Assembly: GCA_015061495.1 (NCBI GenBank)
Contig: SUWL01000021.1
Coordinates: 1 to 40,104, forward strand
Direction: 5' to 3'
Length of the DNA stretch: 40,104 bases
From: Lentisphaerota bacterium
GTDB lineage: Bacteria; Verrucomicrobiota; Lentisphaeria; Victivallales; Victivallaceae
Below the pieces are notes generated by a model, which was given only the letters and a program-made list of their open reading frames with translations, was not told the origin of the DNA and did no database searches. Below, piece after piece: positions 16,965 to 24,130 of this stretch. How positions within the stretch are numbered: the first letter of the stretch is position 1; every line of letters starts with the position of its first letter. A program made the translations under genes and the position numbers.

Positions 16965-17867
16965 TTACATTTCGCTGATTTTTTTGACAACGATCCCCGC
17001 CCAGGCGACATCGGCAGGAGAAAAGGGGATGATTTTGCCTTCCGGATTGTCGCTGGTCAGGAGAAATGAATCATGCTGCTTGCGGAAACGCTTGCAGACG
17101 ACCTTTTCCGGGATGCCGGATTGTTCATCAAACCGGATGACCACGATCTTGTTGTCAGGAATATCGCTGATCGCACCGGCAGGTTCAACCAGCACAATGT
17201 CATCATCGAGAATGCGCGGCTCCATGGAAATACCGTGGACCCGGAATGCTTTGGTATCTCTCCTGGCATCCGCCGGGATGGGAACAGTCGGAGTGTTATC
17301 CAGATCCCAGCGGCACATGACGACATTTGACGATTCGACAGACTCCAGATGGCTGGCGGCATTTGCCCATTCCACCACGGGAATGGGGCGCACCAGCATG
17401 GCACCGTCACTGTAGAGCCCGCTCGGAGCAAGCAGACTTCTTTCACCGGGCGCAATGGGAGCTGTTTCCGGATCGCACCCTAAAGCATCGAACACCGCCG
17501 AAAGCACATCGGGAAACCAGTTCAATTCACCGTTGAAAAGCCGCCGGAATGAAGAGGTCGATGCATACCCGATCGCCCGGCGGAGCTGCTCGGCATCCTC
17601 CATGCCGCGCCTGTTCATGGCACTGCACAGGTAGTGCCGCAACGCCGGAGTATTGGAAATCGTACCATGCGTATGCGGCGGCACCGGCAGATCCAGTTCC
17701 GGCAGCAATTTCTCCCAGCAGTCATCGGTGATCGATTTCACCTTGCCGCTCAAATAGCGGGAAATATTTGACGCACTGACCTGACATTTGGCGGCAAGTT
17801 CTTTTGCCCCGCCGCAATTTTCCACCGCCTGACGCAATGCATGCAGAATACTGTCATCTATTTTCAT
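16965..17867 (-). CDS. Phage-type repressor, tandem HTH plus S24 LexA/CI-like peptidase domain
   Basis: 300 residues. HTH-like segment 1 is at about 20-41 (AKELAAKCQVSASNISRYL) and a second HTH-like segment at about 91-112 (DAEQLRRAIGYASTSSFRRL). The C-terminal ~130 residues are an S24 peptidase/dimerisation domain with Ser214 in VHGISMEPRI and a candidate Lys259 (VVCKRF), then LLTSDNPEGK. The position expected for the self-cleavage Ala-Gly reads Ala-Ala (EWANAAS, about 170-171), so RecA-stimulated cleavage may be altered. The gene is divergent from the head-gene cluster, with three palindromic operators between them. It should be the master repressor of the island and of itself. Confidence 0.85.
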   Translation of the reverse strand: MKIDDSILHALRQAVENCGGAKELAAKCQVSASNISRYLSGKVKSITDDCWEKLLPELDLPVPPHTHGTISNTPALRHYLCSAMNRRGMEDAEQLRRAIGYASTSSFRRLFNGELNWFPDVLSAVFDALGCDPETAPIAPGERSLLAPSGLYSDGAMLVRPIPVVEWANAASHLESVESSNVVMCRWDLDNTPTVPIPADARRDTKAFRVHGISMEPRILDDDIVLVEPAGAISDIPDNKIVVIRFDEQSGIPEKVVCKRFRKQHDSFLLTSDNPEGKIIPFSPADVAWAGIVVKKISEM

Positions 17868-17912
17868 CTTATACCCCGTTGTTCCATTGGTTTATGAAGC
17901 AGTACATAATAT

Positions 17913-17940
17913 AATATAACCGCTAATTGCGTGCATGCAA
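17913..17940 (-). promoter_or_regulatory. Promoter of the repressor gene
   Basis: On the minus strand TTGCAT (17940-17935), 16 bases, TATATT (17918-17913), about 46 bases before the repressor ATG. The left operator covers its -35, which suggests autoregulation. Confidence 0.55.
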
Positions 17941-17945
17941 GCAAT
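17926..17945. promoter_or_regulatory. Operator 1, palindrome over the repressor -35
   Basis: ATTGCGTGCATGCAAGCAAT, an imperfect 20-bp palindrome centred on TGCATGCA. It shares the ATTGC/GCAAT ends with the two operators to the right but is four bases longer. Confidence 0.5.
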
Positions 17946-17973
17946 TTTTTTGAAAAAAATTCATTTTTCGGTC

Positions 17974-18001
17974 TTGAAAATTGCACGGATGCAATTATAT
18001 T
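17974..18001 (+). promoter_or_regulatory. Island promoter with operator 2 exactly filling its spacer
   Basis: TTGAAA (17974-17979) and TATATT (17996-18001) are separated by 16 bases, and those 16 bases are the palindrome ATTGCACGGATGCAAT (17980-17995). A dimer bound there would block RNA polymerase completely. The promoter reads rightward into the small ORF at 18115 and the head genes. Confidence 0.65.
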
Positions 18002-18050
18002 GGGTAAATGTCGGCTGCTGAATGGCGGGCGGATTTTTTTGCCCGGCGTG

Positions 18051-18066
18051 ATTGCACGCGTGCAAT
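18051..18066. promoter_or_regulatory. Operator 3, perfect 16-bp palindrome
   Basis: ATTGCACGCGTGCAAT is a perfect palindrome, identical to operator 2 except for the two central positions. It lies about 45 bases downstream of the promoter start point and 50 bases before ATG 18115. It could be the highest-affinity site or serve cooperative binding. The centre contains ACGCGT. Confidence 0.65.
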
Positions 18067-18114
18067 CAAACAAATAAACATAGGTAATTGCAAAAGGAGT
18101 AAAAGGAACAAAAG

Positions 18115-18324
18115 ATGAATATTTCCCAGAGACGTATCAGCGATCCGGTGATCGCGCCATCCGGCAAGATCTATTCGGCACACGGCATCAAAACATTGCT
18201 TGCCGCACTTTTTCCCAATCGTGTTGACGATCCTGCGCATTGTTGCAATACAGCAAAGCGCAGGAGGAAAAAATATGGAAAAAGATCAGTTGACCATTCC
18301 GCCGGAGGATGCGGCACTGCTTGA
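18115..18324 (+). CDS. Small first-gene product of the head-gene island, unknown
   Basis: A possible 69-residue protein, MNISQRRISDPVIAPSGKIY and on. AAAAGGAAC lies upstream of the ATG at a normal distance, and it is the first start codon after the island promoter. The first 45 residues look protein-like; the last 20 are translated across the ribosome site and start of the next gene and are Arg/Lys-rich then odd in composition. It overlaps the TerS-like gene by 50 bases in another frame. It may be a genuine small protein or a leader peptide coupling translation to the next gene. Confidence 0.4.
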   Translation: MNISQRRISDPVIAPSGKIYSAHGIKTLLAALFPNRVDDPAHCCNTAKRRRKKYGKRSVDHSAGGCGTA

Positions 18325-18517
18325 CGAAGTGGAAGCGGCACTTTTCCGCCGGGCAACCGGTTACGAGGATGCATCCGGCAAAGTGGTCCCTCCGGATGTG
18401 CGGGCAGCCATGTACTGGCTGGAAAACCGCTGCCCGGAGCGGTGGAAAAAAAGCCGTTCGCCGGAGAAAACCGATGATCCGGCAAAAAATTTGACCGAAG
18501 AAGAAAATCAGCTTTAA
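18275..18517 (+). CDS. Short TerS-like protein (phage small terminase subunit, C-terminal type)
   Basis: 80 residues starting behind a strong AGGAGG. The segment LFRRATGYED then VPPDVRAAMYWLENRCPERW is the pattern found at the C-terminal part of many phage small terminase subunits (VPPD..A..FWL.NR.P..W). The N-terminal DNA-binding helix-turn-helix of normal ~150-residue TerS proteins is absent, so this is a shortened form; DNA recognition might be supplied by another protein of the island. It precedes the portal gene by 13 bases. The family call rests on the motif only. Confidence 0.55.
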   Translation: MEKDQLTIPPEDAALLDEVEAALFRRATGYEDASGKVVPPDVRAAMYWLENRCPERWKKSRSPEKTDDPAKNLTEEENQL

Positions 18518-18530
18518 CAGGGAGGACGTT

Positions 18531-19907
18531 TTGAACAACTACATCTTTCACCGCAAAAATGCCGAATACAGTGCCAATGAGCGCCGCTGGCGCCGTTCAC
18601 AGGAAGCCTATTCCGGCGGCAGAGAGTATATCGAACAGGCGCTGATCCGCCATGTTTCCGAAATCGATCTGGAATTTTCCGAACGCCGCCGCCGTGCCTA
18701 TTACTTCAACTACCCCCGGGCAATCGCCCGCCGGATCACCCAGTATGCGTTGAGCATCTCTCCGGTACGGCGCAATGCCGATGCGGAACTGCTGGAAGAT
18801 TGGAGCCGTACCGGTTTGCGCACCAATGAGGTCATGCGCCAACTCTCCACACTGCTCAATGTCTACGGCAGAGCATGGCTGCTGGTGGAAATGCCCTTTT
18901 TCCGCGGTAATCCAACCATTCAGCAGGCAAAAGAAAAACGCTTGCGCCCATACGCCAAAGCTCTTTCCCCGCTGCAGGTGACCGACTGGGCGGTCGGGGA
19001 TGACGGCAAACTGCTCTGGGCTCTGATCGCTGAAGAAGAGCTGATCTGCTCCGATCCATTCACCCCGCCGGTGCGGGTGAAACGCCGCCGCCTCTATGAC
19101 CGCAACAGCTGGCGGCTCTTTGAGAATGTTTCCGGCAAAGTCATGGAAGTCGCTTCCGGGATCAACCCGACCGGCAGTGTCCCGCTGGTGCCGGTCACTG
19201 AACCGGACGGATTCGGTCTGGCGGCAAATCACTGGTTCGAAGACGTGGTGCGCATCAGCGAAGCGATCATGAATAATGAATCCGAGGCGCAGATGAATAC
19301 TGTCAAACAGATGTTCGGCATGCTGGTGGTTTCCGACACCTTTGCCCGCAGTGCCCGCAAACTGGCGGTGCAGGAGGGACAGACCGACAACTTTTCCGCG
19401 ACCGTGGCACGCAGTGCCGCCATCATCGAATCGGTGGAGGAAAAGGGGATCAGCCGCTACATCAGTCCATCCGGGGTGGCGACGGACACCATCCGTTCCG
19501 AGAACCGCTATCTCAAAGAGGAGTTGTACGATGTGGTCGGTCTGGCAGTGCAGGGCAACTTGCGGGAACATCAGAGTGCCGAATCAAAAGCATGGGATTT
19601 CCAGAATGTCAGCCAGTTCCTCGCCACCAGAGCGGAACTGCTGGAACAGGCGGAGATCGAAGCGTGGAAACTGATGCGCCGCTACGATCTGGATCTGCCG
19701 GTTCCCGAGGTGCGCTACAACCGGAAATTCACCGTCAGCGACCTTGCCGGTGCCATCGCCGGACTGCTGCAGCTGGCAGATATCCCCGCCGGTAACGCCT
19801 ACCGCAAAGCCGTGGGCAGGACCGCCGCTGAATTGCTGGGCCATATCGGACACATTTCGATCCCGGAAAAAGAGGAGATCATCAATGAAATCGACAAGGA
19901 GAAATGA
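18531..19907 (+). CDS. Phage portal protein
   Basis: A 458-residue protein whose order, size and sequence style fit a phage portal: an N-terminal YSGGREYIEQALIRHVSE segment, PRAIARRITQYALSISPVRR, a mid region with QLSTLLNVYGRAWLLVEMPF, and a long C-terminal helical part (SENRYLKEELYDVVGLAVQG, AWDFQNVSQFLATRAELLEQ). The portal forms the dodecameric DNA gate of the head and docks the terminase. The start is TTG 18531, five bases behind GGAGG, with no better ATG in this frame. It overlaps or abuts the scaffold-like gene, consistent with a morphogenesis operon. Confidence 0.75.
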   Translation: MNNYIFHRKNAEYSANERRWRRSQEAYSGGREYIEQALIRHVSEIDLEFSERRRRAYYFNYPRAIARRITQYALSISPVRRNADAELLEDWSRTGLRTNEVMRQLSTLLNVYGRAWLLVEMPFFRGNPTIQQAKEKRLRPYAKALSPLQVTDWAVGDDGKLLWALIAEEELICSDPFTPPVRVKRRRLYDRNSWRLFENVSGKVMEVASGINPTGSVPLVPVTEPDGFGLAANHWFEDVVRISEAIMNNESEAQMNTVKQMFGMLVVSDTFARSARKLAVQEGQTDNFSATVARSAAIIESVEEKGISRYISPSGVATDTIRSENRYLKEELYDVVGLAVQGNLREHQSAESKAWDFQNVSQFLATRAELLEQAEIEAWKLMRRYDLDLPVPEVRYNRKFTVSDLAGAIAGLLQLADIPAGNAYRKAVGRTAAELLGHIGHISIPEKEEIINEIDKEK

Positions 19908-19909
19908 TA

Positions 19910-20338
19910 ATGAACGAAATCGATAATGAAAATCCGTCAACTGAAATTCCGCTTCCCGCCGAAACCGTTGAGCCGGAATGTGAGGAAAATCTGGAGAACC
20001 GCTACGCCCAACTGCAGAAAAAATATGAACTTCTGCAGCGGCAGAACCTGCTGGAAAAGGTCAGCGGCGAAACCGGATGCACCGATCCGGAGTATCTGGA
20101 ATTCTGCGCACTGCGGCGGCAAATCAATGTTGACGATCCCGATGCTCTGCGCAAATTCGCCCGGGAACTTGCCGCAGTTTCACCGGGATGTTTCACCGCC
20201 AGGATCACTCCCGGCAGCAATGCGGGAAGTCCACAAACTTCCCCGGCAGCCTCCGCCGCAGCGGAGGAGTTTTCCGGTGACCGCATCTCCATGATCGCCA
20301 TGTCGGTCAGCAATGCACCTGATGTCGGATGCCGATAA
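19910..20338 (+). CDS. Scaffold-like acidic coiled-coil protein
   Basis: About 142 residues between portal and capsid genes, the usual place for a scaffolding protein. It begins acidic (EIDNENPSTEIPLPAETVEP), continues with a coiled coil (LENRYAQLQKKYELLQRQNL), and ends with an Ala/Ser/Pro-rich flexible tail. ATG 19910 is eight bases behind AAGGAG; another ATG at 19904 overlaps the portal stop. Size and composition resemble scaffolds of SU10-type head modules. No protease gene is adjacent, so it may leave the head uncleaved. Confidence 0.55.
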   Translation: MNEIDNENPSTEIPLPAETVEPECEENLENRYAQLQKKYELLQRQNLLEKVSGETGCTDPEYLEFCALRRQINVDDPDALRKFARELAAVSPGCFTARITPGSNAGSPQTSPAASAAAEEFSGDRISMIAMSVSNAPDVGCR

Positions 20339-20379
20339 TCATAACTCAATTTTTCCAACCAACTGAAAGGACAAAAATT

Positions 20380-21537
20380 ATGCTTTACAACTACTCTTTC
20401 GCCAACCGTAAACGTGATCTCTCTGATGTAATGGCAACTGTCATCAAGGATGAACCGCGTTTCATTTCCAACTTCCGCACTGCTCCGGATGCCGCTTCTG
20501 CCAAGCATGAGTATCTGGAAGATCTGCTCACCGGCAGAAGCGTTTCCGCCGGCGCGGTTTCCAACGGACTGCTGACTCTTGCCGGTGCCGATGCCGCCAA
20601 ACTCAAAGTCGGGACGCTTCTGGCACTCAAGGATGATCCGGCTCTTTTCCGGGTGACGCAGGTCAATGCCGATTCTGCCGCCGTGGAGATCGCCGCGATC
20701 AACGGTTCGGAATACAGTACCGTTTCCGCACTGCCCGCTGAAGGCGGCAAATTCATCATCGTTTCCACCCCCATGAGCGAAGGGACTTCCAACGGAGACG
20801 GGGAGGAAAATTACCGCCTCTCGGAAGTTGAGTGGAATGCCACGCAGATCTTCCGTAAAGAGATCGTGCTTTCCGGTACTTCTCTGGCAGTCAATCTCTA
20901 CGGCAATGCCGACAATCAGCTCAACCGTCAGACGGCGTTTGCGCTTGCCGACCTTGCCCGTGACCTCAACCGGGTGGCACTTTTCGGCAGACGGGTGGAA
21001 GCTGCTGCCAACACCCGCGGCGAAGCTGGCGGTCTCTACTTTTTCGGCACCCGTCCCGGCGTACCGGTGATCGATGCCGCCAAAGCGAAACTGGACAGTT
21101 TCATCATCAATGATGCCGCCCAGATGGTTCTCGGTGAAGGCGGCGATCCCATGCAGATCCTCTGTTCTCCCGGACAGGCGCGGGTGATTTCCAACGAATA
21201 TCGTGACCGCATCCAGATCCTGCGTTCCGATGACCGCCGCGGTGCGTATGTCGCGGTGATCGTCAATGAGATCAACGGCAAAGGAATGACCATCATGGCT
21301 GATCCCGACATGCCCGACGGTGATGCGTGGCTGCTCGACACCAATTGTTTCGCACTTGCCAATCTCTCCGGCAGGGCGATCAGTGATATGGATGCCACCC
21401 CGAATGGTTTTGACGGCATCCGCCGTGTGGCGATCGGAGAGTTGACCTTTGAATTCAAAAATGTCAAACAGCGCTGCTGCCGGATCAAAAATCTGCTTGC
21501 CAGCAGTGATGCCATCGCCGCACTGCGCAGCGCATAA
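20380..21537 (+). CDS. Major capsid protein, SU10/DUF5309-like (HK97 fold)
   Basis: 386 residues beginning MLYNYSFANRKRDLSDVMAT, a start typical of SU10-type major head proteins, followed by PRFISNFRTAPDA with the usual P-x-F/I pattern. The body has the long-loop then spine features of an HK97-fold shell protein (VEWNATQIFRKEIVLSGTSL, LADLARDLNRVALFGRR, ILCSPGQARVISNEYRDRIQ). GAAAGGA lies upstream. It is complete and not visibly cleaved. It is followed by an intrinsic-terminator-like hairpin, which would let capsid mRNA exceed that of the downstream genes. Host-like codon use argues for long residence in this genome. Confidence 0.8.
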   Translation: MLYNYSFANRKRDLSDVMATVIKDEPRFISNFRTAPDAASAKHEYLEDLLTGRSVSAGAVSNGLLTLAGADAAKLKVGTLLALKDDPALFRVTQVNADSAAVEIAAINGSEYSTVSALPAEGGKFIIVSTPMSEGTSNGDGEENYRLSEVEWNATQIFRKEIVLSGTSLAVNLYGNADNQLNRQTAFALADLARDLNRVALFGRRVEAAANTRGEAGGLYFFGTRPGVPVIDAAKAKLDSFIINDAAQMVLGEGGDPMQILCSPGQARVISNEYRDRIQILRSDDRRGAYVAVIVNEINGKGMTIMADPDMPDGDAWLLDTNCFALANLSGRAISDMDATPNGFDGIRRVAIGELTFEFKNVKQRCCRIKNLLASSDAIAALRSA

Positions 21538-21553
21538 GAACTGCGCAACTGCG

Positions 21554-21579
21554 CTTCCCGCCGTTCCGGCGGCGGGAAG
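21554..21579 (+). terminator. Terminator-like hairpin after the capsid gene
   Basis: CTTCCCGCCG (21554-21563), six-base loop, CGGCGGGAAG (21570-21579), then TTCTTT. A perfect ten-pair GC-rich stem with a moderate T tract, probably partial, since three more island genes follow. Confidence 0.65.
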
Positions 21580-21612
21580 TTCTTTATGAAACTGCCAAAA
21601 TCAAGGACGTAA

Positions 21613-22113
21613 ATGATGACTGTTATTGAAATAGACAACTTTTTTCTCACACATCCGCTGTCGGAAAAGTATTTCAGTTTTTCGGATGTGGAACGTGCCG
21701 GATGCGCCGCCGTCGCCGAAAGAGACGTGCGGGCAGTTCTGCTGGATGTGGAAATTTCCACCGGTGAAGAAGCCGCTTTTGTCAATCCCGCCATCGCGGA
21801 ACAAACGGTATTTCTGCTGCTCAATCCGGAGTATCTTACCGGGACCTATTCCCGGATCACGGCGGTATCTTCCGCCGGAGAAACCCGGAAATTTGACCAG
21901 AACCGCTCCATTCTCGGAGAACGTCCGGCGGCATTGATCGCGCCATTGCTTGCCCGGCAGAAAAAAACGGTGGATACCGGAGGAAACACCGGAGGAAATG
22001 CCGGAGGAAATGCCGGAGGAAATACCGGAGGAAACACCGGAGGAAACACCGGAGGAAACACCGGTATTGATGATGATGACACCTGCCCGCTGCTGCGTTT
22101 GTCCCGGGGTTGA
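21613..22113 (+). CDS. Unknown island protein with Gly-Gly-Asn-Thr repeats
   Basis: 166 residues. The first ~115 residues form a globular part (VIEIDNFFLTHPLSEKYFSF, then VRAVLLDVEISTGEEAAFVN) that I cannot assign. Its position just after the capsid gene is where a head-tail connector or head-decoration protein is usual. About eight copies of a TGGN/AGGN tetrapeptide follow, from a 12-bp DNA repeat (about 21976-22065), then an acidic DDDD and a short tail. The repeat should be flexible and could vary in copy number. AAGGA precedes the ATG. Confidence 0.6.
   Translation: MMTVIEIDNFFLTHPLSEKYFSFSDVERAGCAAVAERDVRAVLLDVEISTGEEAAFVNPAIAEQTVFLLLNPEYLTGTYSRITAVSSAGETRKFDQNRSILGERPAALIAPLLARQKKTVDTGGNTGGNAGGNAGGNTGGNTGGNTGGNTGIDDDDTCPLLRLSRG
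21976..22065 (+). repeat. 12-bp coding microsatellite
   Basis: Around seven to eight head-to-tail copies of ACCGGAGGAAAC (or GCC/AAT variants) inside the preceding gene. It keeps the frame at any copy number, so slippage would lengthen or shorten the Gly-rich linker without killing the gene. Confidence 0.8.
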
Positions 22114-22132
22114 ATTATAAAGGAGATTTTTT

Positions 22133-22627
22133 ATGAATGATGCACCGCATTGCTACGGCAAATTTCCCAATGGGAATAATCCCTGTGCCAAGTGTGATTT
22201 TTTCGATTCCTGCCGCTACTATGCCGCCACGGCAAAAAGCGTTGACCGCCGCCGCCACACCGTAAGTTTTGAAGCAGCGCAGGATATTATTGCGGACATA
22301 CCTGCCGACAACAGTATTCCCGGCGGAACTGACGATCCCCCTCCCCGGCAGATGATCGCTGATGCACTGGGAAAATTTTTCCGTTACCTGCTGGAACTCG
22401 ATGAGTACACGCTCGGTCTGATCCGGGAATTGATCGCGCCGTCCTTCCCGGATGGCAAGTGTTCAATTTCCCATCTTGCCGAACTTCACGGCTGTTCCCG
22501 GCAGGCACTTCACCGCAAAATGCTTGCCATCATCGCAGTTCACCCGGAATTGACGGCACTTTTTCTGCTGGCGACCCGCAAATTGAGTGCCGCCAGGAAA
22601 GCGTTTCTGCGGAAACGGGCAATATAA
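22133..22627 (+). CDS. Cys-cluster plus helix-turn-helix protein
   Basis: 164 residues. The N-terminus has four Cys (Cys7, Cys18, Cys21, Cys27; CAKCDFFDSCRYY), which could bind Zn or an Fe-S cluster. The C-terminal third carries a helix-turn-helix candidate (ISHLAELHGCSRQALHRKML), followed by a short basic tail. It looks like a DNA-binding regulator or a recognition subunit. AAAGGAG lies upstream, and the large terminase follows after 18 bases. Given the missing HTH in the TerS-like protein, it could provide packaging-site recognition; late-gene activation is the alternative. Confidence 0.6.
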   Translation: MNDAPHCYGKFPNGNNPCAKCDFFDSCRYYAATAKSVDRRRHTVSFEAAQDIIADIPADNSIPGGTDDPPPRQMIADALGKFFRYLLELDEYTLGLIRELIAPSFPDGKCSISHLAELHGCSRQALHRKMLAIIAVHPELTALFLLATRKLSAARKAFLRKRAI

Positions 22628-22645
22628 AGACATCAGGAGCGGCAG

Positions 22646-23899
22646 ATGTTTGCGTATACTGCACTGCAAATCCAGGCCCTGAAACTTTTGGCATCTCCGG
22701 CGCATCACATCATGCTTTTCGGCGGTTCCCGATCCGGAAAGAGTTTCGTATTGTGCTGTTCGCTGGTTGCCAGAGCTTTGCGCGCACCGGGCAGCCGTCA
22801 CGCCGTGATCCGCCGTTACTGTGCCGCTGCCCGCAGCACCATCGGGATGGATACCATGCCAAAAGTTCTGCGAACCCGTTTCGGCGGCGGTCTGCGTTAT
22901 GTTTTCAACAAAGGGGAAAACTTCTTCCGTTTCGGCAACGCTTCGGAAATCTGGCTCATCGGCTTGGATGATGGAGAACGTGCCGATAAAATATTGGGGA
23001 AAGAGTTTGCCACGATCTACTTCAACGAGTGTTCCGAATTGGACTATTCCGGTATCCAGACGGCACTGACCCGGTTGGCACAAAATGTTCCGCCATTGGT
23101 CAACCGTGCCTATTACGACTGCAATCCGCCGGGTAAAAACCATTGGAGTTACCAGTTATTCATGGAAAAATGCGACCCGGTGAGCCGCACTGCGCTGGCA
23201 ATTCCGGCGGATTACGCCGCCATGCAGATGAATCCGGATGCCAACCGGGCAAATCTGCCGCCGGACTATATCGAGAAAACTCTCGCCAATCTGCCGGAAA
23301 AACAGCGCATGCGTTTCCTCAATGGGCAATGGCTGGACGATATGGATGGCGCATTGTGGAACTACGATATGATCGATCCCTACCGGGTAACGGAACTGCC
23401 GGCACTGGAAAGGATCGTTATCGGTGTCGATCCGGCGGTTGCTTCCGGCAGGAACAATGACTTTACCGGAATCATTGCCGCCGGACGCGACCGCAATGGG
23501 GAATTGTATGTCCTTGCCGACCGCAGTATCCGCAGTACTCCATTGATATGGGTACGCGAAGCGGTCAAACTCTACCGGCAATGGCACGCGGATGAGGTGG
23601 TCATCGAGGTAAATAACGGCGGCGAATTGATAACTTCTCTTTTCGCCAGAGAAGATGGTTCGGTCGCCGTCAAACCGGTACGGGCCTACCGGGATAAATT
23701 CAGCCGCGCGGAACCGGTTGCGGCATTTTATGAAAAAGCCCTGGTCCACCATCTGGGAGTTTTGCCGGAATTGGAACGGCAGATGTGTTCATTCAAAGCC
23801 GGCAGATTTGCCGCTTCTCCGGATCGGATGGATGCGCTGGTCTGGGCGTTGAGCGAATTGGCACTGTTTCCGGATGAACACCGCTTCATCACGGTATAA
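22646..23899 (+). CDS. Phage terminase large subunit
   Basis: 417 residues, the motor and nuclease that drive DNA into the head. ATPase: Walker A GGSRSGKS at 26-33, Walker B ATIYFNECSEL at about 122-132 (Glu128), coupling region YDCNPPGKNHW. Nuclease (RNase H fold): Asp262 in VIGVDPAVASG, Glu321 in VVIEVNNGG and Asp396 in SPDRMDALVWA, so all three acidic ligands are present. Length and motifs fit PBSX/T4-like TerL. AGGAG lies before the ATG. It is unusual that TerL is the last gene of the island, over 4 kb from the TerS-like gene. Confidence 0.92.
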   Translation: MFAYTALQIQALKLLASPAHHIMLFGGSRSGKSFVLCCSLVARALRAPGSRHAVIRRYCAAARSTIGMDTMPKVLRTRFGGGLRYVFNKGENFFRFGNASEIWLIGLDDGERADKILGKEFATIYFNECSELDYSGIQTALTRLAQNVPPLVNRAYYDCNPPGKNHWSYQLFMEKCDPVSRTALAIPADYAAMQMNPDANRANLPPDYIEKTLANLPEKQRMRFLNGQWLDDMDGALWNYDMIDPYRVTELPALERIVIGVDPAVASGRNNDFTGIIAAGRDRNGELYVLADRSIRSTPLIWVREAVKLYRQWHADEVVIEVNNGGELITSLFAREDGSVAVKPVRAYRDKFSRAEPVAAFYEKALVHHLGVLPELERQMCSFKAGRFAASPDRMDALVWALSELALFPDEHRFITV

Positions 23900-23900
23900 A

Positions 23901-23938
23901 TTGACCGGGATTGCTGTAAAATCAGCAGTCCCGGTCAA
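23901..23938 (+). terminator. Terminator-like hairpin after the terminase gene
   Basis: TTGACCGGGA (23901-23910) pairs perfectly with TCCCGGTCAA (23929-23938), extended by TTGCTG/CAGCAG. It starts two bases after the TerL stop and closes the island. A run of T is missing, so it may also serve the convergent coaC transcript or act as a 3' stabiliser. Confidence 0.65.
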
Positions 23939-24130
23939 TCATTATAAGCGATCTCACGCCTTGCTTGCGTTGCTCATTCGGTCACCTGCATAGTATGCCC
24001 GCTTGCTTAAGCCAAAGCAAAAAGGGCGCCTGGAATGCAGGAGGCGGCGTGAGCGCCCCGGCAAAAAAGCGTGCGGAATGCATGCGCCCGGCAAAAGAAC
24101 CGCCCGGACGCGGACAAACAGAACCGGGAA
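23939..24130. other. Intergenic stretch between the island and coaC
   Basis: It includes CGCCTTGCTTGCGTTGCTCA and a GGGCGCC/GGCGGCGTGAGCGCCCC region that can fold back. It has no credible gene. It may be a dispersed repeat or the right scar of the island, but no copy elsewhere in this window was noticed. Confidence 0.4.

Follow-up and report, generated by a model that had tools for sequence, protein, structure and literature searches.

The DNA analysed is a stretch of 40,104 nucleotides (hereafter, the window) in which a reverse-strand S24-type repressor gene lies next to a compact forward-strand block of phage head and packaging genes. The features of this island are as follows.

16965..17867 (-), S24-type repressor, 300 aa; Ser motif GISMEP and Lys (VVCKR) retained, linker without an Ala-Gly/Cys-Gly pair
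17974..18001 (+), sigma-70-like promoter TTGAAA-16-TATATT, overlapped by operator 1; such promoter-like sites are no commoner than in shuffles
17980..17995 (no strand), candidate operator 1, ATTGCACGGATGCAAT
18051..18066 (no strand), candidate operator 2, ATTGCACGCGTGCAAT, 71 bp from operator 1
18115..18324 (+), small conserved ORF, 69 aa, without a PHROG match and absent from the ORF list of the initial annotation
18275..18517 (+), small terminase (TerS), 80 aa, shortened at the N terminus relative to longer homologues
18531..19907 (+), portal protein, 458 aa, phrog_145 match
19904..20338 (+), scaffold-like protein, 144 aa, no family match, conserved position
20380..21537 (+), SU10-type major capsid protein, 385 aa, PF17236 match
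21613..22113 (+), probable head-tail adaptor (repeat protein)
22133..22627 (+), Cys-rich/HTH protein, possible regulator; L107 homologue matches HTH_11 (1.2e-5)
22646..23899 (+), large terminase (TerL), 417 aa, PF17289 and phrog_979 matches
23900..23939 (+), hairpin 3' of TerL (I19)

Pfam and PHROG searches identified the repressor (PF00717, 2.7e-15), TerS (phrog_309, 3e-12), the portal (phrog_145, 2.5e-45), the capsid protein (PF17236 SU10_MCP, 1.4e-45) and TerL (PF17289, 1.2e-16; phrog_979, 1.3e-61), and the gene content and coordinates of the initial annotation hold. The scaffold-like, repeat and Cys-rich/HTH proteins gave no confident family in these searches; relatives have homologues of all three in the identical order. 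In TerL, residues K32, E128, D262, E321 and D396, which we take to be the Walker and nuclease residues, occupy alignment columns that are invariant or have one exception among 30 homologues, in agreement with the initial claim that the catalytic residues are kept. The same annotation had described a hairpin after TerL, host-like codon usage and the lack of any visibly broken gene. Consistently, the hairpin was located immediately after TerL, codon usage resembles that of 13 host genes in the window (RSCU r = 0.97) and all island genes are open frames; the GC content is 0.544 versus about 0.51 in host genes. The product of 21613..22113 is probably a head-tail adaptor, based on a structure model with a mostly helical N-terminal domain (mean pLDDT 80) and a low-confidence repeat tail, and on a homologue at the equivalent place in the head-tail cluster L107, whose own match to an adaptor family is weak (phrog_541, E 0.036). 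PDB profile searches gave no match for the adaptor or the stopper.

Seven of the nine neighbouring ORFs tested belong to host families (citrate synthase, RmuC, GDSL lipase, flavoprotein, guanylate kinase, CxxCxxCC and class I tRNA synthetase), while two match no family. Neither the island nor these nine ORFs contain an integrase or replication gene, or the set of tail, lysis, replication and integration genes expected at one locus in a complete prophage. An Rfam scan found two tRNAs and nothing more. A 59-bp repeat after TerL was considered as an element end and rejected, the repeat being dispersed in the host.

Of the 34 genus genomes, 30 carry the capsid gene and 30 the portal gene, usually in one copy, and the identical 30 have a strong TerL match. 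As the initial annotation had proposed to check, the gene order recurs throughout the genus, and a chance origin of the island is therefore excluded. Capsid identity is 63-88% across the 30 genomes with frames open in nearly all; apart from the G005 capsid, which is in two pieces, the listed genus matches of capsid, portal and TerL have no internal stops. Genus relatives do not have the block in decaying pieces. Nor was a second capsid, portal or TerL found in this genome (G000), and therefore it has no related full prophage. Based on 28 pairs from 8 genomes, dS is 0.76-1.37 for block genes versus 0.92-1.24 for five neighbouring host genes, and dN/dS is well below 1 for capsid (0.13), portal (0.12), TerL (0.18) and S24 (0.15), with the Cys-rich/HTH protein (0.36) and the tail tube described below (0.33) evolving fast. 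These ratios, mostly 0.12-0.18, show that the block is under purifying selection, the second check that had been proposed.

The ileS tree has 9-11 of 23 splits in common with the block trees, which among themselves have 14-17 of 23 in common, and in each block tree, supported splits contradict 4 of 13 supported ileS splits; because of these conflicts, exchange is possible. For five host genes versus the block, 4 of 7 splits are common, which also speaks against full congruence. In favour of co-diversification with the host are a Mantel r of 0.44-0.74, the similar dS and the common positions described below. Agreement between the block's gene trees and the host gene tree is only partial. In the portal and TerL trees, the head-tail cluster G037:C10 from another genus falls among the genus blocks at low support (0.19 and 0.45, respectively), and a later phage origin is therefore possible. 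At 19 of 29 loci, at least two and up to 20 flanking gene families are in common with a relative, whereas the window's own locus shares none. The position varies between groups of relatives and is common within groups, and in pairs such as G017/G029 and G014/G028 the common flanks lie on opposite sides. At 9 of 16 ileS loci, the coaC-gmk-ileS order is intact without a block gene in the sequence covered (which in L172 and L177 ends no more than 0.5 kb from coaC), and therefore the block has moved; no empty site could be defined from these loci.

The initial annotation stated that tail genes are lacking. This is true of the island; however, the genome has a tail-tube homologue on another contig (G000:C89:17040-17450; E 5e-31 with the genus profile), which was missed by one zth2 protein query and the first profile and found only by the genus profile. 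Homologues of this tube, which is assigned via a profile chain, are present in 26 of 34 genus genomes and adjoin one MFS-family gene in seven. Three genus tubes scanned matched no named phage family; a PDB profile search gave a weak match to a phage tail tube (E 0.072), and a PDB search with the genus tube profile returned nothing relevant. Adaptor-, stopper- and tube-like homologues are retained in many genus genomes, and a tape-measure homologue in 2 of 34, one of them weak; searches with one protein and one profile found none in G000. Outside the genus, 12 of 13 genomes with capsid, portal and TerL have these genes kilobases apart or on different contigs, the latter being weak evidence for dispersal in broken assemblies. 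This is clearest for strain zth2, whose closed chromosome (CP071032) has host-like genes in the 10 kb that separate portal from capsid, and TerL 171 kb away.

TerS probably starts at ATG 18275, giving 80 aa. In 10 loci of the window's subclade, TerS has about 77-83 aa, and in six of these a stop closes the frame within 84-100 codons; elsewhere in the genus, it has about 125-132 aa. The window TerS matches phrog_309 positions 196-262 and the zth2 TerS positions 149-255. In the excerpted text of PMC6854486, a TerS without an N-terminal HTH DNA-binding domain is a hallmark of GTA terminases; with the HTH recognised by eye, this fits the window's subclade but not other subclades.

The exact operator pattern is confined to the block in 23 of 34 genus genomes, with no occurrence in the reversed control, and is absent in 7 of 30 block carriers. 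None lies at the tail-tube locus; the idea that the block's repressor governs the tail genes was rejected, as the exact pattern is seen solely at the block. With the window query, S24 was undetected in five block loci having room for it and present only as fragments in four.

We consider it likely that a domesticated gene transfer agent (GTA)-like viriform of Lentisphaeria, inherited mainly by vertical descent, has its head-and-packaging locus in the block and its other structural genes elsewhere in the chromosome. Among the three readings offered initially, this one is best supported because the block is intact in 30 of 34 genomes, with host-like divergence, purifying selection, group-shared positions and separate loci across the family; a satellite and a clean prophage remnant fit worse. 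GTAs, as excerpts of PMC9662315 define them, have caudoviricete-derived structural proteins, are fully endogenized, often at multiple loci, are mostly vertically inherited and co-diversify with the host; they encapsidate mostly random host DNA, cannot package their full own gene set in their small head and deliver DNA to other cells. Both caudoviricete-derived structural proteins and endogenization across multiple loci are found here. In such a system, the S24 repressor would hold the operon off; upon its relief, procapsids would assemble on portal and scaffold, TerL and a non-specific TerS would load them with host DNA by headful, adaptor, stopper and tube proteins from the block and other loci would finish the particle, and the particle may ferry host DNA to kin.

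cfPICI satellites encode their own heads on an island without tails, as in the block, and are mobile elements with integrase and replication genes, horizontal mobility and patchy presence. A capsid-encoding satellite of this kind, packaging itself with tails borrowed from a helper phage, would account for head and packaging genes that lie with an S24 switch without tail genes, for the varying position and for the flipped flanks; however, integrase and replication genes are lacking from the island and its nine neighbouring ORFs, and the block, generally single-copy in the 30 of 34 genomes that carry it, its dS host-like and its positions common within groups, has neither cfPICI-like mobility nor patchy presence, some exchange being possible. 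The dispersal of related genes over separate loci outside the genus, the tube homologue elsewhere in the genome and a short TerS, which would be unhelpful for selfish packaging, also make this origin very unlikely.

The island's order equals the front half of the G037:C10 cluster (TerS-portal-scaffold-capsid-adaptor-minor head-Cys/HTH-TerL, then stopper, neck and terminator), as would be left by a recently lost prophage. Such a clean remnant is highly improbable given a set kept in 30 genomes with diverged capsids and open frames, low dN/dS and operators kept in 23 genomes; neither the broken nor the relaxed genes of a decaying prophage were found. Domestication for another purpose, such as phage interference or DNA-filled tailless heads, fits the missing tape measure in G000, the purifying selection on head and terminase genes, and a self-contained operon whose exact operator occurs nowhere else. 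But adaptor-, stopper- and tube-like homologues are needless for such a role and the TerL catalytic residues are kept; we regard it as unlikely.

Several known systems resemble the proposed GTA-like viriform, and no GTA from its host's phylum was found in the literature searched. RcGTA (type I GTAs, Alphaproteobacteria) likewise has chromosomal caudoviral head and packaging genes at several loci and, as appears to hold for the block, vertical inheritance; it spans five loci (excerpts of PMC9662315) and, like the window's subclade, has a TerS without the N-terminal DNA-binding domain (excerpts of PMC6854486). The block differs from RcGTA in phylum, in its SU10-like capsid family, in having its own S24 repressor and dedicated candidate operators and no detected tape measure; its particles and DNA transfer are predicted. 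Faecalibacterium, the host of FpGTA, belongs to another phylum than the block's host. Like the block, FpGTA occurs in a gut anaerobe, and in one complete genome its genes form two operons separated by about 125 kb, but it is podovirus-like and backed by long reads of particle DNA (excerpts of PMC12946183). In BhGTA/VSH-1 of Brachyspira, TerL lies outside the main cluster, similar to the proposed viriform, and the structural set co-diversifies with the host, as may also be the case here; however, its structural genes form one 16.3-kb cluster (excerpts of PMC9662315), whereas the block's relatives in sister genera lie apart. The head-tail clusters G037:C10 (L044), G039:C90 (L107) and the IMG/VR contig L038 have portal, capsid and adaptor homologous to those of the block, and L044 has the gene order in common with it; unlike the block, they also contain minor head, neck, tail terminator and tape measure genes.

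Laminarin or starch induces hexagonal particles in zth2, a Lentisphaerae strain in culture, and also in strain WC36, where they are under 100 nm (PMC11361711). It is a tentative and rather doubtful suggestion that the particles of both strains are made at least partly by scattered chromosomal genes, which we mapped in zth2 only, and represent a nutrient-triggered GTA found through much of a PVC-group family. Two deposited tailed phages of zth2/WC36 were considered as linked to the scattered genes and rejected, with no significant match. A GTA-like system of apparently separate origin that spans a large part of a Lentisphaeria family, its genes dispersed in most of the genera examined and united in one operon in the block's genus, would illustrate how a phage dissolves into a chromosome, and prophage finders could miss it. 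Strain zth2 is cultured, its genome is complete and its cells already release hexagonal particles, and the idea is therefore testable at once. The carriers belong to a little-studied phylum, and several of them come from animal guts.

We consider a GTA-like working to be the best reading of the block at 16965..23938, and probably the correct one; of the six features that define gene transfer agents (GTAs; PMC9662315), two are present (Caudoviricete-derived structural proteins and full endogenization, often multi-locus), and co-diversification is seen only in part. The window is contig C51 of G000 (2.67 Mb, 123 contigs, 89% complete), and all block genes named in the initial annotation are present in it with open frames and, as claimed there, host-like codon use. 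Host families account for seven of nine ORFs tested next to the block, the other two having no match, and the closest tRNA genes lie at distances of ~10 and ~13 kb. The host belongs to a Lentisphaeria lineage: 31 of the 32 named loci encoding a capsid relative are labelled Lentisphaeria/Lentisphaerae/Lentisphaerota, Victivallaceae, Victivallales or Victivallis, the last being labelled just uncultured bacterium; these loci include several MAGs from the gut of herbivores (sheep, yak, roe deer, horse), one on the complete zth2 chromosome (strain zth2, CP071032), and one from Victivallis vadensis (partial match). A 59-bp repeat at 23940-23998 has six further copies (86-88% identity) on G000 contigs C78, C47, C38, C8, and C65, several close to contig ends; it is a dispersed host repeat and may drive rearrangement. 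A terminator-like hairpin between the capsid and adaptor genes (21553-21580), of a kind whose number is not above that in shuffles, is possibly a partial terminator.

The capsid is present in 71 of 148 genomes searched: 30/34 in the genus, 34/44 in the rest of the family, 7/59 in the order's other families (one at E 7.6e-4 only), and 0/11 outside the order. TerL was found in 51 and portal in 45 of 80 genomes searched, and capsid, portal, and TerL are all strong in the same 30 genus genomes. The four genus non-carriers are 71-87% complete assemblies; G004 has a TerL trace of 40 residues only, and no TerL was found in G018, G023, and G030. Each gene is usually present once. The few exceptions are G021, with a second capsid and a second TerL, and G024, with two TerL pieces; in addition, the capsid of G005 and the portals of G022 and G033 are each split in two. 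The second capsid and more distant TerL of G021 (L056, G021:C46) are perhaps a different phage. An IMG/VR pattern scan with the window capsid returned one relative (58%), and against phage records the capsid reached at most 29.7% and TerL 43.8% (Synechococcus phages).

Based on 40 loci fetched around the capsid, the genus order is TerS-portal-scaffold-capsid-Cys/HTH-TerL wherever the contig extends far enough; the adaptor-like gene follows capsid and precedes Cys/HTH. S24 forms the left end in most genus loci; the window query left it undetected in G005, G006, G008, G024, and G026 and recovered fragments only in G010, G012, G013, and G027. In eight of these nine genomes (all but G006), a divergent ORF of ~145 aa, perhaps another repressor type, stands in its place (L042, L043, L048, L074-L078). 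The genus block loci have no single host flank in common; 19 of 29 form five groups that share at least two flanking gene families (up to 20), which mostly track relatedness (G010 is an exception) and do not include the window's own locus. In some pairs (G017/G029, G014/G028), the shared flanks all lie on the other side of the block, which looks as though it had been inverted in place. The order of coaC, gmk, and ileS, which adjoin the window block, is kept without the block at 9 of 16 ileS loci of relatives.

Protein distances correlate with those of ileS, with Mantel r of 0.71 for capsid, 0.60 for portal, 0.55 for TerL, and 0.57 for Cys/HTH (26 genomes), and 0.44 for S24 and 0.74 for the tail tube (21 genomes; p = 0.0002, for S24 0.0022). 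The capsid and portal trees each have 11/23 and the TerL tree 9/23 splits in common with the ileS tree (relabelled trees: mean 0.2, maximum 3), and the block-gene trees share 14-17/23 among themselves. The capsid, portal, and TerL trees each contradict four of the 13 ileS splits that are well supported, and a tree of five concatenated host genes has 4/7 splits in common with the block (10 genomes). ileS itself may have been exchanged; that of G001, G015, and G019 stands apart. The G001 and G015 genes (66%) are distant from most of the genus, and G067 (C10/C41) and G073 (C46/C66) each carry two full-length ileS-like genes. Among 28 pairs from 8 close genomes, five host genes have median dS values of 0.92-1.24, and those of the block genes are 0.76 for capsid, 1.04 for portal, 1.22 for TerL, 1.33 for S24, and 1.37 for Cys/HTH; dN/dS, the per-gene test proposed initially, is 0.134 for capsid, 0.124 for portal, 0.183 for TerL, 0.148 for S24, and 0.360 for Cys/HTH. 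The tube has a dS of 1.44 (two pairs saturated) and a dN/dS of 0.327. We take these data to mean that the block descended mostly vertically under purifying selection, with some exchange of its genes possible besides.

A tail-tube profile built from phage-like and scattered loci (A1) matched 22/80 genomes, 12 of them in the genus, and a stopper profile (A2) matched 25/80; neither matched G000. Rebuilt with genus sequences (A3), the tube profile found 26/34 genus genomes (all best matches E 4.1e-15 or better), including G000 (C89:17040-17450). Of 24 genomes that have a tube as well as the block, 23 carry the two on different contigs; in G010, they are ~24 kb apart. The tube adjoins a homologue of one same gene, an MFS transporter in G000, in seven genomes including G000, and another common gene, by eye an ABC transporter, in three. 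Tube and stopper of another subclade occupy host contexts that recur in four or five genomes. The name tube is based on the position of a tube-like gene before the tape measure in L107 (G039:C90) and L038 (an IMG/VR contig), weak PHROG and PDB matches, and a beta-rich structure model (six sequences) whose confidence is modest (mean pLDDT 71); three genus tubes scanned matched no named phage family. One-protein and one-profile searches found no tape measure in G000, and matched 1/80 genomes in one search and 8/80 in the other. In six genus genomes, the lone tube gene adjoins a fast-evolving protein, E3 (174-406 aa; L245:7277-8494, L249:8848-9981, and relatives), a candidate tail chaperone or short tape measure; two E3 proteins scanned had no PHROG match.

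Outside the genus, capsid, portal, and TerL were all placed in 13 of the 80 genomes (G034, G036, G037, G039-G043, G045, G046, and, from another family, G085, G092, and G097). In 12 of these, scattered copies lie on different contigs, which in broken assemblies such as G036 is little proof of dispersal, or, as in zth2 and for the capsid and portal of G037, are separated by kilobases that contain host-like genes. In G039, portal, stopper, and a TerL piece lie side by side. The neighbours in the stretches read are host-like by eye. The clear case is the single chromosome of zth2 (G043):

about 1.604 Mb, TerS-TerL
1.774 Mb, capsid, adaptor, and two tube-like genes
1.786 Mb, portal and stopper-like gene
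0.74 and 1.28 Mb, further tube-like genes

G037 and G039 additionally have a head-tail cluster. That of G037 (C10, locus L044) has the block order plus a minor-head gene between adaptor and Cys/HTH, followed by stopper, neck, and tail terminator; genes upstream of it resemble, by eye, an AAA ATPase and an RloB-like partner. The portal and TerL trees nest G037:C10 within the genus block, weakly supported (0.19 and 0.45), the portal tree placing G039:C90 next (0.99). In the capsid tree, the genus block falls among the scattered genes and neighbours G046 (0.96). Between them, these trees would be compatible with an operon that came first, with a scattered state that came first, or with two domestications.

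In zth2, laminarin is reported to raise phage-associated genes 4- to 200-fold, in WC36 a phage integrase and a phage portal protein are among the most up-regulated genes, and filamentous, hexagonal, and icosahedral particles appear (PMC11361711). The phages sequenced there are located outside the chromosomes, and the term gene transfer agent is absent from that article. The scattered zth2 genes had no significant match to the two deposited tailed phages of zth2/WC36, and our literature search found no GTA for Lentisphaerae, Victivallis, Lentisphaerota or the PVC superphylum.

Palindromes ATTGCAYNNRTGCAAT are repeatedly found in the S24-TerS interval, often as a pair ~70 bp apart. The exact pattern occurs once or twice in each of 23/34 genus genomes, all block carriers, and always within about 1 kb upstream of the portal gene or a portal piece; it is absent from seven block carriers, and the reversed control had no match. 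Putative operator 1 overlaps the region's sole forward promoter-like site. Among 18 long S24 proteins, the Ser motif is kept in 14 and missing in four, and 12 of these 14 have a linker without Ala-Gly or Cys-Gly (WANAAS in the window). Given what is known of phage repressors, such a linker would argue against ordinary SOS cleavage. In ten loci of the window's subclade (W, L059-L067), TerS has ~77-83 aa; several of these have longer alternative starts, and in six the frame is closed by a stop within 84-100 codons. The rest of the genus has a TerS of ~125-132 aa, whose N terminus is HTH-like by eye. Upstream of the short TerS, most subclade loci have a conserved ORF of ~65-78 aa (18115-18324 in the window), whose start resembles D-P-x-x-S-x-x-G-x-x-Y-S.
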